Positions 7,940 through 31,537 of a stretch of 39,906 bases of DNA are shown here, one piece after another. A model generated the notes under the pieces. The model did no database searches. It saw only the letters and a program-made list of their open reading frames with translations, and was not told the origin of the DNA. Source of the DNA: Lewinella sp. (GTDB taxonomy: Bacteria; Bacteroidota; Bacteroidia; Chitinophagales; Saprospiraceae); NCBI GenBank assembly GCA_026421165.1, contig JAPKCQ010000002.1, positions 1-39,906 on the forward strand, read 5' to 3'. Made by a program: the position numbers and the translations under genes. Each line of letters opens with the position of its first letter. Within the stretch, counting starts at the first letter, position 1.

Positions 7940-9430
7940 CTAGTAGTGGCAGCGCTGGCAGTTGAGGCCACCGACATCTTCAACGGTGACGCCTTCGCGC
8001 TCGCCGTTCTTAATCTCATCGTGGTAGCGCTCGTAAGCCTTGTAATAATCATTTTCGGCGAATTCGACCTTGGTCTGGCGGTGGCAATTGATACACCAGC
8101 CCATACTAAGGGGGCTGTATTGATATACCAGCTCCATCTCCTCAACGGGTCCGTGACAATTCTGACACTTCAGGTTACCAACGGTAACGTGCTGGGCGTG
8201 GTTGAAGTAAGCGTGGTCGGGTAAGTTGTGGATACGTACCCATTCTACGGGGCCGGCGATTTTTTCGTCGCCAGTCATCTCGTTGGTCAGGGCTTCTTCG
8301 ATAGCGTCGAGTTGCTCATCGATTACATCCTCCATGTCGTCAAGATCGCGTTCGTCCTTGATGTACTCCTGGGCTATCCATTTTTTATAGACGTCCTTCA
8401 CCTCTTCGTTGGTGTAGTTTTCGTAGTCCTTAATGTATGAATCTTCAATTGGGTCGTAACCAATGGCAGCGTAAATCTTAGTAATCTCGGCGGTACCGTA
8501 GTTGCTACCCTTCTTAATGGCACGGTGGCAATTCATACAGGTGTTCACGGCAGGGATGACGGAGTGCTTAGAACGACGGGCGCCATCGTGGCAATACTGG
8601 CATTCGATCTTATTGAGGCCAGCGTGAGTAACGTGGCTGAACTTAATCGGCTGTTCAGGCTGATAATCTTGCTGTCGGCCAAGCTCGATAGCATGATTTA
8701 CAGTAGTGTAGCCACCAAGCACCACCAGAGCGAAAAGGACAAAAGCGATTATGCCCTTGCTCGTCAGTACCTCCACTAAAGTACGGCGTGTGGTAGGTGC
8801 TCCTTCCTTACTGCCAACCATGTACTTCATGTTGCTCGTGATCCGTGCGAGGATCAAAGAGAGCAGTAACAAGGCAACACCAAGAATTATGAAAAGCCAG
8901 GTGTTGTCGGTTTTTTCGGCAACTGCTGCAACAACGGGGCCGCCAACTACAACCGGTTTGCCTACCCCTGTGTATTCAGCCTTAATGAAGGTGAGCAGGT
9001 GTTCAACATCTCCATTAGAGAGGTTGGTAAAGGAGCTCATAACCGATTTGTTCCACTCAGTCCAAACGGAGACAGCCCGCTTGCTATCTCCGGAGGAAAT
9101 AAGACCCTGAGAGTTTTGAATCCAACGGTAGAGGTGCTCACGTGGTTCGGAAGCCCAACGTTCCTGGACACCACCGAGAGCGGGACCAGTAGCGTTGTCT
9201 TTCATGCTCTTTGCATGGCAAGATTGGCAACCGTTAGAATTCCAAAGAGTCTTACCCATTTTATAATCACCAGCGCCAGGAGCGACAGCGGACGGAGCAG
9301 GATCATCTTGGACGGTTGACTCAGCGGTAACCCCGTCAGCCTGTTCACCCTGTGCAAACAGAGAGACACCCCCCAAAAAGAGGCAACAGACGATGAGGAG
9401 AGATTGTATAAACTTCAAATGATATGTCAT
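7940..9430 (-). CDS. actA: Alternative complex III multiheme cytochrome c ActA with an extra N-terminal monoheme domain
   Basis: A 496-residue protein with a signal peptide (residues 1 to about 26, ending SLFAQ). It has six CxxCH heme-c sites: C68QSCH, C277QYCH, C298MNCH, C422QNCH, C446INCH and C491QRCH. The first lies in a separate class I cytochrome c domain (about 55-155, likely axial Met131 in MSSFTNLS). Two hydrophobic segments follow (about 177-197 and 227-245), then the five-heme domain that characterises ActA. The last heme motif ends one residue before the stop codon. Acidic residues cluster at 355-385 between hemes 3 and 4. It is the first gene of the operon, 62 bp downstream of a strong promoter. 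Confidence 0.95.
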   Translation of the reverse strand: MTYHLKFIQSLLIVCCLFLGGVSLFAQGEQADGVTAESTVQDDPAPSAVAPGAGDYKMGKTLWNSNGCQSCHAKSMKDNATGPALGGVQERWASEPREHLYRWIQNSQGLISSGDSKRAVSVWTEWNKSVMSSFTNLSNGDVEHLLTFIKAEYTGVGKPVVVGGPVVAAVAEKTDNTWLFIILGVALLLLSLILARITSNMKYMVGSKEGAPTTRRTLVEVLTSKGIIAFVLFALVVLGGYTTVNHAIELGRQQDYQPEQPIKFSHVTHAGLNKIECQYCHDGARRSKHSVIPAVNTCMNCHRAIKKGSNYGTAEITKIYAAIGYDPIEDSYIKDYENYTNEEVKDVYKKWIAQEYIKDERDLDDMEDVIDEQLDAIEEALTNEMTGDEKIAGPVEWVRIHNLPDHAYFNHAQHVTVGNLKCQNCHGPVEEMELVYQYSPLSMGWCINCHRQTKVEFAENDYYKAYERYHDEIKNGEREGVTVEDVGGLNCQRCHY

Positions 9431-9573: not shown

Positions 9574-9932
9574 GGCGCGGACGCGGGTGCAAGGAGAGGT
9601 TTTTTGTTCTAGTCGAGACCCTCTGGGCCAAGTTCTTACGTCGCGGAGCGACGATTCCGTCAGATGATTACAGCACGGAGGTCTCTTATGGGAAAGATGG
9701 AGAATTTGCTCCTTAAGAACGCAAAATACACCTTTATTTTTTCGCGGACACTATTTTTTACCCACCTGCATTTTGTTGCTTCGCAACGGCACAAACTTGG
9801 CCTAGAAGACCTCGACCGAGACAGTGCTCGTACTAAGAGACATTGTTCCTCAAAGACCCTAGTATATAGGTCTAATCCAAACCCTTCCCTGCCCTACTCT
9901 TTTCGTCCGTTCATTGCACCCGCACTAGCGCC
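9574..9932. repeat. Facing GC-rich boxes enclosing an inverted-repeat element
   Basis: GGCGCGGACGCGGGTGCAA (9574-9592) faces TTGCACCCGCACTAGCGCC (9914-9932). The right box is preceded by CCGTTCA, which in inverted form also follows the left box at 2291-2298, so similarity extends beyond the core. The interval holds the inverted repeat at 9606-9822. The only long open frame here (9664-9954) has no recognisable protein features. The 9431-10056 gap otherwise holds the two divergent promoters. Confidence 0.7.
9606..9822. repeat. Long inverted repeat with mini-hairpin arm ends (copy 1)
   Basis: The left arm 9606-9652 and right arm 9775-9822 are imperfect reverse complements, and most mismatches are transitions that would allow G-U pairs. 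Shared blocks include GGGCCAAGTT and AACTTGGCC. The inner end of each arm is itself a hairpin: GTCGC-GGA-GCGAC on the left, GTTGC-TTC-GCAAC on the right. A related copy lies at 23792-23899. Confidence 0.7.
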
Positions 9933-10056: not shown

Positions 10057-10611
10057 ATGTCAGCTCAATCACCATTCATCTTACCCTTAAGCGGGCTTAG
10101 TCAGGGGGTTTACCGGTATAATCTTGTGATCGACGGAGCCTTCATCGCCACCTTCCCCGATGCGCCGGTACAATACGCCGACGTAGCACTGGAATTAACG
10201 TTGGATCGCCAGCTACGGCAACTGATCATGGATTTCGACTTTTCAGGCAGCGTACGCACCGATTGCGACCGCTGTCTAGCGAATGTTGATTTTCCGGTTA
10301 ACGGCCAAACCCAGCTAATCGTCAAGTTCAATACCGAAGCAGAAAGTCTGGAAGAAGAAGGCGAACTCCTTTACCTTCATCCGGATACCAGCCTCTTCAA
10401 CGTAGCACCTTACGCTTACGAAATGGTGATACTGGCTCTGCCGATGATTCGCACCTTCAACTGTAGAGAAGACGAACCACCCTACCCCTGCGACGAGGAA
10501 ATGCTGGACCGCATTGACGACTCCGTAGACACCGTCCCTGAAATCGCTCCCAAAAGCGAAGACGATGACGACAAGCCCAGCCCCTGGGACGCACTCAAAG
10601 ACCTCAAATAA
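10057..10611 (+). CDS. YceD / DUF177 family protein (rRNA accumulation protein)
   Basis: A 184-residue acidic soluble protein of the YceD/DUF177 family. It contains the family's CDRCL motif (in RTDCDRCLANVDFPV) and a second Cys pair in NCREDEPPYPCDEE, which may bind a metal. Family knowledge: YceD homologues are linked to 23S rRNA processing or accumulation and are almost always encoded directly before rpmF, as here (64-bp gap). The C-terminus ends in a run of Asp/Lys and PWDALKDLK. An in-frame start at 10003 exists but would lie at the predicted transcription start, so the ATG at 10057 (MSAQSPFILPL) is chosen. Confidence 0.88.
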   Translation: MSAQSPFILPLSGLSQGVYRYNLVIDGAFIATFPDAPVQYADVALELTLDRQLRQLIMDFDFSGSVRTDCDRCLANVDFPVNGQTQLIVKFNTEAESLEEEGELLYLHPDTSLFNVAPYAYEMVILALPMIRTFNCREDEPPYPCDEEMLDRIDDSVDTVPEIAPKSEDDDDKPSPWDALKDLK

Positions 10612-15766: not shown

Positions 15767-16915
15767 CTACCGTCGCACACCTCCAGCCAAGGGCGAATCC
15801 GGTATTCCCGCCGGCCGGCGGCCCAGCACCTCCGGCAAAGAGCAGGTCTCTAAGCGGGGCAGGACGTAACGCGCAAACAACGCACACTCTTCCAAATGCG
15901 GATAGCCGGAGAGGATGAAACTACGGATGCCCATCGCGTGGTAGCGCATCAACTTTTCATAAACCTGGTCCGGATTACCAACGATGGCAGCGCCGCAACC
16001 AGAGCGGGCGCGGCCGATGCCGGTCCAGAGGTGATCTTCTACGAAGCCGTCTTTATCCGATTGTTCGCGGAGAGCAGCTTGTTTACTTACGCCGTAAGAT
16101 TTGGCGTCGAGGGCGCGGTTGCGTAGTTCGGCGCCGGATTCATCGTCTATATTGCTCATCAAAAGCTGGCTGGCAGCGATGGCTTCGGCCTCCGTCTCCC
16201 GGACGATTACGTGAACGCGGAGACCGAAGTCCAGCTTCCGTCCATACTTTGCACCTGCGGCCGCGCCCACCTTATCGATGTGCTCCTGAATTTTATCCTC
16301 CGTCTCGGGCCACATCAGATAAACATCGCAATGCTCCGCGCAGAGGTCTACTCCGTCCGGGCTATAGCCACCAAAATAGAGCAACGGGCCACCGTTCTGC
16401 TGGTAAGGTTTCACCGGTTCCGTAGGCAGATCAAGGTCGTAAAATTCGCCTTTGAAATTCAGGTGATCCTGCGTCCAGCACTGCTTTAAAATCTCGATCA
16501 CCTCCCGGCTCTTCCGGTAACGGACCGCACTCTCCACCTTAGTACCCGGCAGGTCGCTGCTGATGATGTTGACGGTCAGTTTTCCGAGCAGCATGTGGTC
16601 CAGCGTAGCCAGCGCGCGGGCCAGCATGGGCGGATGCACCTCTCCGCAACGGATGGCCGTAAGCAAGTTCATCTGGCGGAGCTGCGGGGCAATGGCGGCG
16701 GCAAAAGTCAGCGTATCCTGCCCAACCTGGTAACTGCTGGGCAAGAGCATATTACGGTAACCAAGTTCATCGGCCGTTCGGGCAATATGCGCAGCGTTGC
16801 GGTAAGCGCTTTTGTAAAACGGATCGCGTACGCCGAGGTAGCGGTCGTCGCCGTTACAGATGGGTGCGAACCAGGAGACTTCGGCTGCGGTGAGGTGGTG
16901 AGATCGGGCTTGCAT
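15767..16915 (-). CDS. ssuD: SsuD-like FMNH2-dependent alkanesulfonate monooxygenase (LLM family)
   Basis: A 382-residue luciferase-like monooxygenase, the same length as SsuD. The N-terminal barrel has [14 protein letters not shown], and the C-terminal [21 protein letters not shown] is the SsuD substrate-loop signature. [16 protein letters not shown] and [19 protein letters not shown] are also typical. Family knowledge: SsuD cleaves alkanesulfonates to aldehyde and sulfite using FMNH2 from a partner reductase. No reductase (ssuE) or transporter (ssuABC) is in the window, so it acts alone or with distant partners. The start is ATG at 16915. Codons in the region 16249-16267 match exactly an intergenic GC-rich box found at 31519. 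Confidence 0.88.
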
Positions 16916-26039: not shown

Positions 26040-28472
26040 TCACCCCTTAATAAACCCAGCATAATCCAGCCAGTAAACCACCTTCAAAGACACAGACCCA
26101 TTCCGTGGCGTATCCTCCCATAAACCCATGAAGCTGTCGCCGTAGCCGCCTGACCGTTGCTGGTCAAAATCAGTGATGTTAGATTTATAAACAACGAACA
26201 TATCACTACCCGGCGCAAAACGCCAGCGGTAAATAAGGTCGACATTGAAAGCATCAAAATCCTGGTTATGGTTCTGATCGTAGTCGGTATCGGCCAGCGT
26301 ACCATCTTCGGCCAGAAGGTGAAAGCTATTGTAGCTCACACCACTCCAGTAGTGGCGCATCCGCAGGTTCAGGGTCATGTTTGCAGAGAAGCTGTACTTG
26401 CCGGAAAGGCTTGCTTCGACGGAAGTAACGTCACGCTTACCCATGTACACTTCCGTATCGGTACCGACGGTAGCCCGGTTGACGTAGCCAACTTCATTCT
26501 TCTCCCGCCCACGAAAAACACCGGCGTTGAAGCTCAGCCGATCACTGATCCGAAAGCGCGAATTGACGTTAAGGTAGAAGTCCGACCGATCAGCACCGTA
26601 ATAACCATTACTGTTGAAATTTGTAGAAAGACGGATGGCCTTGCGGTTGTCCGTACCCACCCAGCCACCGACGTTACGCTGGCCAGGATTACGCAGAAAA
26701 CGGCCCTTTACGCGCGGTTCAAAATAGTCGAATTGATCGGAGAGGCTCGTTTCCAACCAGAAGTTGACATCCCAGAAGTGCTTAGTTTGCCCATCAACCC
26801 AGACTTCCGTTTCTGCACCGGTGAATTTATCGGGTTTATAAAGCCTGCTGTATTCTAGGTCCCAGCCAGCAGCACCATTAAGGAAGAAACCGTTTAAAAA
26901 TGGCTTGCGATAATTGTAACTTATTACGCCTTCAAACTCGCGCTCGTTGTTCGCGAAAAGAATGCCCAGGTCGTTGGGGTCATAGGTATCACTCTCTTCG
27001 CCGTACTTAGCCCGCCACGTCCAGTTACCAGATATTTTTCCAATTACCAAGCTTGCTTTGTGTCCTGTCGAAGTTTCTTCCGGTAAGAAGCGCTGACTAT
27101 AGCCAAAACTACCGGCGATGGCATATTTATTGGCGTTGTTGTGCAGATCAAAAAGTAAGCCCGTTACGTTGGCATCGGGAGCGGCGCCCTCGCGCACCAC
27201 GTTGGTATTAATAAGGGTGACGGAGGAGTTATTCTTCAGGTTTTGGTCAACAACCATCACGTTATAGTTGGTGAGCGGATTCGTCAGGATTTCGCGTTCT
27301 TCGCCTTCGATACTTCGGACAACGGCCTTGTTTTCCTGCTCAACGGCGTTGAAGAAACCAATCCCCGTACCGTTGGCCGTCCGGCCGCTGATCTTAGTGG
27401 CATTGTAAAGAGAGGCGCGCTGCGAATTATCGACTACGACCTCACCTTCCAGCATTTGCGAATTTGGTGAGCCGAAATAATTACTTCCACCAACCCGACG
27501 GCTGTAGAAGAACCCTCCCTTATTGAAAAGCTCGGTGCCTTCGGTGAAGAAAGCACGTTGCTCATCGAAGCGTTGCTCGAAGGGGCCGAGGTTGAGGACC
27601 TGATCATCGGAACGGGCTTCTCCAAAATCGGGGATCAGCGTCATGTCCAGCGTGAAGGCTTCGGAGAGGCCCACTTTAAGGTCCATCCCGCCCGTGATGC
27701 TGCTTCCCGTAGAAGCTTTCCCTGCACCTGCGTCCCGCGCCGTCAAACCATACACCGCCAGGAAAGGCGTTGCCTGAATTCGAACCGGCGGATTCACGTC
27801 CCGAATGCCGGTGAGCACGCCGCACTGGTTAAGGTAGCCGTCGATGTTGGGGTCAATCGGCGTCCAAAAGCTCTGCTCCTGGTTACGCTGTACGCCCCGC
27901 GCGAAGTTGATGGTCCAGCTTTGTACATCTGTCTTCGGGAAGCGGATGGCGGAAAACGGGATAAAATACTCGACGGACCAACCATTGTCACGCACTACCG
28001 CCTTACTCTGCCAAACGGCGTCCCAATTTTCGTCGTAACCGTCGGTCGAGTACTGAGCATCGAACTGAACATTGGCCGGGGTAGTAAGGAAAGCAAACCC
28101 GTTCTGGCCGCTGTTGTAAGGATCGAGGGAGATGCCGATCCAATCAGTATTCCCAAGGTCGTCCCGTTCAGTAAGCTCCATCTGGATGCTGTCCGGATGC
28201 TCGTCGTACAGCATTCCTCCTACGTAAAAGCCTTTGTCATTATAGAGCACCCGAATGTCCGTTTTTTGCTTAGGCTTAATCCAGGGAACGGGTTGAAGGT
28301 TGGTAAAATCAGAACCGACGGGAGCGGTTTCCCAGGCTTCTTCGTCAAGAAAACCGTCTATCTTAATGATGTCAGCGGTACGAATCGCTTCCAGACTGGG
28401 CTTAGGCTGAGCCTGCCCGCAAAGAATAGTTGGCAGCAGGGTTGCCGCGAGGAATATGGTGATCAGTTTCAT
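26040..28472 (-). CDS. DUF5916 outer-membrane beta-barrel protein with CBM9-like N-terminal domain
   Basis: An 810-residue secreted protein with signal peptide MKLITIFLAATLLPTILCGQ. Residues about 30-215 form a carbohydrate-binding (CBM9-like) domain (IKIDGFLDEEAWETA, DIRVLYNDKGFYVGGMLYDE, GWSVEYFIPFSAIRFP). The remaining 590 residues are alternating aromatic/polar beta strands with family blocks TLIPDFGEARSDDQVLNL and PFEQRFDEQRAFFTEGTELF, and a short C-terminal strand ending YWLDYAGFIKG. This is the DUF5916 family, common in Bacteroidota, with no proven role; sugar binding or surface transport is inference. It is a single gene whose upstream region is shared with a divergent T9SS protein gene. 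Confidence 0.88.
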   Translation of the reverse strand: MKLITIFLAATLLPTILCGQAQPKPSLEAIRTADIIKIDGFLDEEAWETAPVGSDFTNLQPVPWIKPKQKTDIRVLYNDKGFYVGGMLYDEHPDSIQMELTERDDLGNTDWIGISLDPYNSGQNGFAFLTTPANVQFDAQYSTDGYDENWDAVWQSKAVVRDNGWSVEYFIPFSAIRFPKTDVQSWTINFARGVQRNQEQSFWTPIDPNIDGYLNQCGVLTGIRDVNPPVRIQATPFLAVYGLTARDAGAGKASTGSSITGGMDLKVGLSEAFTLDMTLIPDFGEARSDDQVLNLGPFEQRFDEQRAFFTEGTELFNKGGFFYSRRVGGSNYFGSPNSQMLEGEVVVDNSQRASLYNATKISGRTANGTGIGFFNAVEQENKAVVRSIEGEEREILTNPLTNYNVMVVDQNLKNNSSVTLINTNVVREGAAPDANVTGLLFDLHNNANKYAIAGSFGYSQRFLPEETSTGHKASLVIGKISGNWTWRAKYGEESDTYDPNDLGILFANNEREFEGVISYNYRKPFLNGFFLNGAAGWDLEYSRLYKPDKFTGAETEVWVDGQTKHFWDVNFWLETSLSDQFDYFEPRVKGRFLRNPGQRNVGGWVGTDNRKAIRLSTNFNSNGYYGADRSDFYLNVNSRFRISDRLSFNAGVFRGREKNEVGYVNRATVGTDTEVYMGKRDVTSVEASLSGKYSFSANMTLNLRMRHYWSGVSYNSFHLLAEDGTLADTDYDQNHNQDFDAFNVDLIYRWRFAPGSDMFVVYKSNITDFDQQRSGGYGDSFMGLWEDTPRNGSVSLKVVYWLDYAGFIKG

Positions 28473-31449: not shown

Positions 31450-31518
31450 TTTAACAGAGTACATGATACATATAACAGGAACGCGGACACAGCCTTTTTC
31501 TTTGCCTTCCAACTTCAC

Positions 31519-31537
31519 TTGCACCTGCGGCCGCGCC
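31519..31537 (-). repeat. GC-rich box of the dispersed family
   Basis: TTGCACCTGCGGCCGCGCC on the plus strand, preceded by a pyrimidine-rich tract. An identical 19-mer lies inside the ssuD-like gene at 16249-16267. Confidence 0.75.

Follow-up and report, generated by a model that had tools for sequence, protein, structure and literature searches.

A decayed repeat between divergent genes of a Lewinella genome: probably a REPIN-like element of a family spread by a RAYT-type transposase

An inverted repeat between divergent genes

The window analysed here is a stretch of 39,906 nucleotides from a Lewinella genome (contig JAPKCQ010000002.1; the genome is G000 below). Between two divergent open reading frames, one cytochrome c-like (7940-9430, minus strand) and one encoding YceD (10057-10611, plus strand), lies an inverted repeat at 9604-9826 with two arms, each about 50 nt long in the window sequence (Table 1). 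A first reading made from the sequence alone had described arms ending inwardly in a triloop mini-hairpin, and this description holds: the inner hairpins of both arms have perfect 5-bp stems. In addition, each arm has a second, outer triloop hairpin, which adjoins a GTCG foot, and this foot is present on both arms. A repeat search matched the arms to each other over 23 nt at 83%. The structure proposed in the sequence-only reading is also borne out by folding of both strands, since on neither strand does any of 200 dinucleotide shuffles fold as well as the 217-nt segment itself (z of -5.5 and -4.9). A search of the whole window against Rfam at gathering scores returned two tRNAs only, and the element has no family match. 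Both copies of the element in the window are located between long open reading frames.

Table 1. Features of the focal element and its surroundings in the window. The nhmmer seed profile consisted of eleven arms from other copies only, the focal arms being excluded, and was run on 29 stretches of the same genome; the R1 bit scores are not independent, as both focal arms are part of that model's alignment.
Feature	Position	Strand	Basis
Left REP arm, C-type	9604-9653	+ (reads inward)	nhmmer E 2.4e-10; model R1 51.4 bits
Foot/guide GTCGA, left arm	9612-9616	+	sequence
Core REP hairpin GACCC-TCT-GGGCC, left, worn, one A.C mismatch	9617-9629	+	alignment A1 and pair counts
Inner accessory hairpin GTCGC-GGA-GCGAC, left arm	9640-9652	+	sequence; helix 2
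Loop, about 122 nt	9653-9774	no strand	spacer list
Right REP arm, T-type	9774-9826	- (reads inward)	nhmmer E 3e-10; model R1 62.7 bits
Inner accessory hairpin GTTGC-TTC-GCAAC (written on +), right arm	9775-9787	-	sequence
Core REP hairpin GGTCT-TCT-AGGCC (- strand), right, one G-U-type pair	9799-9811	-	alignment A1
Foot/guide GTCGA, right arm	9812-9816	-	sequence
Family A, left copy, just outside left REP arm	9574-9602	+	pattern scan, up to 4 mismatches
Family A, right copy, kept with its partner in the G014 orthologue	9904-9932	-	pattern scan, up to 4 mismatches
Copy 2, ordinary REPIN, 18-nt loop	23786-23904	no strand	element and model searches

Anatomy of the arms and covariation

Read inward, the arms of the family have the approximate consensus CATTGTCCC-GGTCGA-GGCCT-TCY-AGGCC-GAGTTCCTG-C-GTYGC-GRA-GCRAC. 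Each thus holds a REP-like unit, in which a GGTCGA foot is followed by a 5-bp triloop hairpin (the core hairpin, consensus GGCCT-TCY-AGGCC) and then by the second, inner triloop hairpin. The underlying alignment (A1) contains 29 arms hand-picked from 49 aligned ones (52 profile matches) that cover both hairpins without large inserts, with at least one qualifying arm (C235) omitted. Among these 29 arms the foot reads GTCG in 15, GTTG in five, GTGG in one and otherwise in eight. At the outer end there is a weak CA dinucleotide (C in 37 of 61 at position -1 and A in 44 of 61 at position 0), which is too faint a signal to count as a cleavage site.

Both hairpins are well kept across the 29 arms, with 88% of cells paired, versus 22-36% when the partners are slid; the value is 82% for the core hairpin (helix 1) and 94% for the inner hairpin (helix 2). 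Cells changed on both sides number 24, versus 8.4 +/- 3.6 after shuffling, and none of 500 shuffles is as high, with the proviso that these shuffles leave the relatedness of the copies through common descent in place. Two weaker measures of covariation are six pairs with change on both sides, a value reached by 26 of 500 shuffles, and 13 further pair types, reached by 162 of 500.

The sequence-only reading had suggested that base pairing is under selection, and this stands for part of the structure: the hairpins inside each arm covary, whereas pairing of one whole arm with the other is no better within a copy than between copies. Over all columns, and with G-U pairs included, left and right arms pair at 0.814 in 10 pairs taken from single copies and at 0.813 in 198 combinations of arms from different copies. 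A long RNA hairpin or cruciform maintained by selection, as had been proposed, is therefore not supported. The outer 33 columns give 0.745 within versus 0.691 between copies, and the inner hairpins 0.692 versus 0.762. The inner hairpins pair less well within a copy because each REPIN joins two unlike arms, which we call C-type (GTCGC/GCGAC) and T-type (GTTGC/GCAAC).

A dispersed family of doublets

REPINs are doublets of REP sequences that RAYTs are thought to mobilise (PMC3116915). The further copies implied by the sequence-only reading do exist. At E<=0.01, a one-arm covariance model built from the 29 arms of A1 detected 70 arms in G000, 69 in the congener G003 and 0-15 in every one of the 19 remaining genomes of the genus (best E among these 3.7e-10); these per-genome counts may be low, since the 150 best candidates were scored per genome. 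Applied to 43 sequence sources, the covariance model gave 73 arms at E<=0.05. The arms are spread over dozens of different contigs. BLAST of the focal region against its own genome listed 46 matches, the window included (40 of 278 candidates scored), and those beyond the window are of two kinds, namely arms and a separate GC-rich repeat outside the arms. A near-perfect 120-bp version lies on contig C244 of G000 (631-750) and, used as a query, gave 41 matches at E<=1.

The arms converge in pairs, which is the REPIN layout. The loop between them is 16-21 nt long in 26 of 27 converging pairs, a count made from 30 rows of which three were omitted (L061 and L063, both short overlapping pairs, and the second of two rows at L052); the pairing rule used left 17 of the 73 arms unpaired. 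The sole exception in loop length is the focal copy, whose loop of 122 nt thus holds about 105 extra nucleotides. In G003, contig C107 (5780-6105) carries an array of REP arms with a mostly 34-nt period.

Typing of the arms gave 15 scorable pairs (14 rows were not scorable on both arms, and L063 is CG/TG), of which 14 are mixed C/T, one is T/T (L155, typed by eye) and none is C/C. This suggests that the doublet is propagated whole and, as far as these sequences go, that it is the unit of inheritance. It also gives another meaning to the C-G to T-A difference between the inner hairpins of the focal arms, which had been taken for a compensatory change. Because REPINs of this family combine a C-type with a T-type arm, the difference is an inherited one between arms and no repair at the focal site. 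More generally, what looks like a compensatory change within a single repeat can be an asymmetry that its two arms have inherited.

A RAYT-like transposase gene beside the family

Contig C244 also carries a Y1/HUH transposase gene at 1-465 on the minus strand, cut by the contig start, and the REPIN on this contig lies some 45 bp upstream of the part that corresponds to the start of the related G003 protein. This N-terminal stretch is homologous to the uninterrupted protein of G003 but is separated by an in-frame stop, and there is no ATG at the position matching the G003 start. The in-frame stop and the cut at the contig start make present activity of this RAYT doubtful, and the gene is probably inactive here, unless translation begins further in. 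In G003, the RAYT gene at 8271-8732 has model matches on both sides (8018-8162 and 8908-9303).

The assignment to RAYTs draws on several comparisons. The open part of the G000 protein scores 23.2 bits in one search and 22.9 in another against PF01797, whose curated cut-off is 23. Against NF047646, "REP-associated tyrosine transposase", the partial G000 protein scores 36 bits (E 4.4e-9) and five relatives score 59-70 bits; all six RAYTs tested stay below the cut-off of 80 bits, yet this model is the best NCBIfam match of all six. A profile of 13 proteins found one solved protein at E<=0.01, namely 4er8, the E. coli TnpArep (E 4.5e-7), and in the 13-protein alignment NHxH (the HUH motif), Y186 and NP are invariant. 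The corresponding motifs of the G000 protein are NHLH and YVPHNP. In G000, G003 and G005 the gene is placed after the end of the same neighbouring gene, so that it looks vertically inherited; we take this neighbour to be BamA-like.

The best copy, of 120 bp, has no tnpA of its own and the transposase gene lies outside the element, unlike in elements classed as IS200/IS605. At the end of contig C30 of G000 (1-132; L010) there is a second Y1 transposase fragment, which at 19.7 bits is below the PF01797 cut-off and which, by eye, we assume may be IS200-like. In G005, contig C68 (69283-69744; L067) carries a RAYT orthologue with one in-frame TAG, and its REPs are GTAG-footed.

Coupling of repeat and transposase across genomes

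At E<=0.001 the 120-bp element matches two of 60 genomes (its own included), G000 and G003, and these are also the two genomes with the closest RAYT versions, which are 80% identical, the next being at 56%. Moreover, the REPIN adjacent to the RAYT gene of G019 has 59 matches in G019, one weak match each in G003 and G020, and none in the other 18 of the 21 genomes.

A foot followed by a triloop hairpin recurs beside the RAYT genes of congeners. At 30 RAYT loci, the 5-mers that most often precede a 5-bp triloop hairpin are GTCGA (five loci), GTAGA (four) and GTTGA (four). The pattern GT[ACT]GA with a perfect hairpin occurs at 11 of the 30 loci, versus none or one in 20 mononucleotide shuffles. 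The other 19 loci are without it, the G000 locus included, where both core hairpins are imperfect; thus a GTNGA-hairpin rule is not universal. Near some congeners' RAYTs the foot is GTAG or GTGG, for example at L067, L072, L087 and L091. In a wider scan, in which short loci were scanned whole and some genomes are shared with the set of 30, the best 80 of 414 loci include 29 with a GTNG hairpin and a recurring stem, versus 0-2 in ten mononucleotide shuffles. Inspection by eye of the third guide base against the residue that follows the conserved W showed no pattern. Congener genomes can hold several unlike RAYTs (seven matches in G002 and five in G015), and several of their RAYT loci have a distinct REP sequence of their own.

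History of the two sites in the window

The best-aligned orthologue of the focal spacer, that of the congener G014, keeps both genes and the outer arms of a neighbouring repeat, family A, and is without the REP arms and the loop. Homology to the focal site ends near 9590 and returns near 9852, and some 160 nt of different DNA stand between these points. Since G014 has other DNA at the site, this is absence of the element rather than a clean insertion. Copy 2 is likewise missing from the corresponding spacers of G014, G005 and G018; those of G005 and G018 are without a REPIN, and G014 has a family-A pair there. The model gave no match in the orthologous spacers, its four matches in nine loci (best E 0.028) lying elsewhere, and a clean empty site was obtained for neither copy.

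Interpretation

We regard the focal feature as very probably a decayed member of a REPIN-like family, that is, a non-autonomous single-strand mobile element spread by a RAYT. The features read from the sequence on which this view is built are the family itself, its doublet layout, the covariation within arms, the arm asymmetry, and the siting beside, and co-occurrence with, the transposase gene. In the mechanism that we infer, each REP would fold into triloop hairpins in single-stranded DNA, for example on the lagging strand, and a genome-specific RAYT, a Y1/HUH tyrosine transposase, would recognise the hairpin together with its 5' GTCG foot and nick beside them; the doublet would then be moved or copied by the RAYT to new sites. 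In G000 the family is probably immobile now, because its RAYT gene has an in-frame stop near the N terminus and is cut by the contig; an uninterrupted relative is found in G003. The system looks as if it were dying in G000 while the repeat copies remain. The focal copy itself is worn, with a loop enlarged by about 105 nt, and is unlikely to serve any function of its own at the locus. What appeared to be an orphan RNA or cruciform becomes, on this reading, part of a host-specific mobile-repeat system.

How the focal copy came by its long loop is a question within the REPIN reading. Two independent REP singlets may have inserted in facing orientation on either side of older spacer DNA, and a loop so far outside the range of 16-21 nt speaks for this. 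However, the focal arms combine a C-type with a T-type, like those of intact doublets, the final seven nucleotides of the loop (GCATTTT) resemble, by eye, the loop end of another copy, and the loop has no significant match in the G014 spacer, so that we consider two separate insertions rather unlikely. The loop also has no match elsewhere among the 46 listed for its own genome, the window itself aside (40 of 278 candidates scored).

Another possibility is that the family is a DDE-type MITE of a different transposase family, near the RAYT gene by chance. Long inverted arms, dispersed copies and the lack of coding capacity would all suit a MITE, the nearby family A is also MITE-like in look, and the RAYT gene of G000 is broken. 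Nevertheless, a foot with a short triloop hairpin stands beside congeners' RAYTs far more often than in shuffled loci, and among the 60 genomes searched the family is confined to the two whose RAYTs are closely related, which together leave a DDE-type origin improbable. Least probable of all, by a little, is a structured RNA, or a 5'-UTR element belonging to the divergent genes, with pairing under selection, which the strong predicted fold on both strands, the position between divergent genes and the somewhat greater likeness of the outer arm columns within a copy would favour, but which we set aside because whole-arm pairing is no better within than between copies, G014 keeps the neighbouring genes and the outer A arms without REP arms or loop, and Rfam gave no match, the arms moreover lying on dozens of different contigs.

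Relation to known repeat-transposase systems

Like the REPIN/BIME and RAYT/TnpAREP systems, the family has inverted REPs separated by a short loop of fixed length, numerous dispersed copies, a genome-specific distribution beside a Y1/HUH transposase gene, and two unlike REP types, as also combined in the E. coli REPtron (PMC6006769, PMC3116915). In contrast, the stem foot of canonical REPs is GT[AG]G (PMC6006769), whereas the foot here is GTCG in 15 of 29 arms, each full arm has a second, inner triloop hairpin, the loop of the focal copy is oversized and the RAYT gene of G000 is broken. As the foot departs from GT[AG]G, we call the family a REP/REPIN variant and not a canonical member. What is new within this REPIN-like kind is the GTCG foot with the accessory hairpin; transposition is inferred from sequence features, and the element is no new RNA.

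Several other systems come close in part. The mostly Bacteroidetes TnpAY1 subclass 2.6, described as having "atypical secondary structures" without GT[AG]G (PMC6006769), shares the host phylum, REP-like structures without that foot and the NH[LIV]H motif, but its proteins have WQ, YIH[QN]NP and 179 aa, whereas those here mostly have W[AE] and Y[VI]LNNP-like motifs, and their open frames are in most cases 220-250 aa long. TIRtrons, in which RAYT-like genes go with other long inverted repeats (PMC3733652), resemble the present system in the RAYT-like gene and in long, moderately abundant inverted repeats, some of which are partly self-complementary; unlike in that account, a REP-like foot and hairpin can be recognised inside the arms here. 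The Marinomonas REPtron Mb (group 3) also has a perfect 5-bp stem, with a gap of two bases to the tetranucleotide and one base here, and its guide is GTAG, not GTCG (PMC8266576); the RAYT lineage studied here is known from sequence. Identity with CGTC-tagged REPs was rejected, since these are defined by a CGTC tag, an 8-9 bp stem, a 4-5 nt loop and no transposase gene (PMC3733652), whereas the stem here is 5 bp, the loop 3 nt and a transposase gene is nearby. A search of the open-licence literature on RAYT/REP in Lewinella, Neolewinella, Saprospir- and Bacteroidetes/Bacteroidota gave no description of such a system.

It is possible, if on balance doubtful, that the RAYT guide of Neolewinella/Lewinella is a variable GTNG(A) code, its third base being A, C, G or T beside different RAYTs, with one hairpin per RAYT, and that the REP of the present family gained a second hairpin in two unlike versions, one on each arm. 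If true, such a code would supply natural variants from which to learn how the guide picks the cleavage site. A change of the third base abolished cleavage in Stenotrophomonas, whereas Marinomonas tolerated changes with a shifted cut site, and under the published cross-pairing model the predicted cut for GTCG is CG, or CA by way of T2/G4 (PMC8266576). The guide variants near congeners' RAYTs (GTAG, GTGG, GTCG and GTTG) could serve as a natural test of the guide-to-cleavage-site rule.

The neighbouring repeat family A

Family A, whose repeat is GGCGCNNNCGCNGGTGCAANGNANGNTTT, flanks the focal REPIN on both sides and has further sites in the window at 2329-2357, 16239-16267, 26354-26382 and 31509-31537 (up to 4 mismatches). 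With up to 2 mismatches, it has 339 sites in G000, 455 in G014, 359 in G003, 342 in G005 and 274 in G002, 89-156 in G006, G018 and G009, and 0-28 in the other 13 congeners, and none was found in 59 genomes from other genera of the host family (the reversed-pattern control also gave 0). Some sites are paired as inverted repeats. The idea that family A is the outer part of the REPIN was rejected, given its 339 sites versus 70 arms and its presence in G014, G005 and G002 without the REPIN. The two are nevertheless 1 nt apart in a few copies, and family A lies within 250 nt of 11 of 25 REPIN loci at up to 4 mismatches (in G000, L013, L014, L018, L019, L048, L050, L051, L146, L148, L149 and L157). 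At all 11 of these loci the family-A site is in fact no more than 50 nt away, and its GGTGCAA end faces the REPIN, an orientation that gene-proximal placement of family A could cause.
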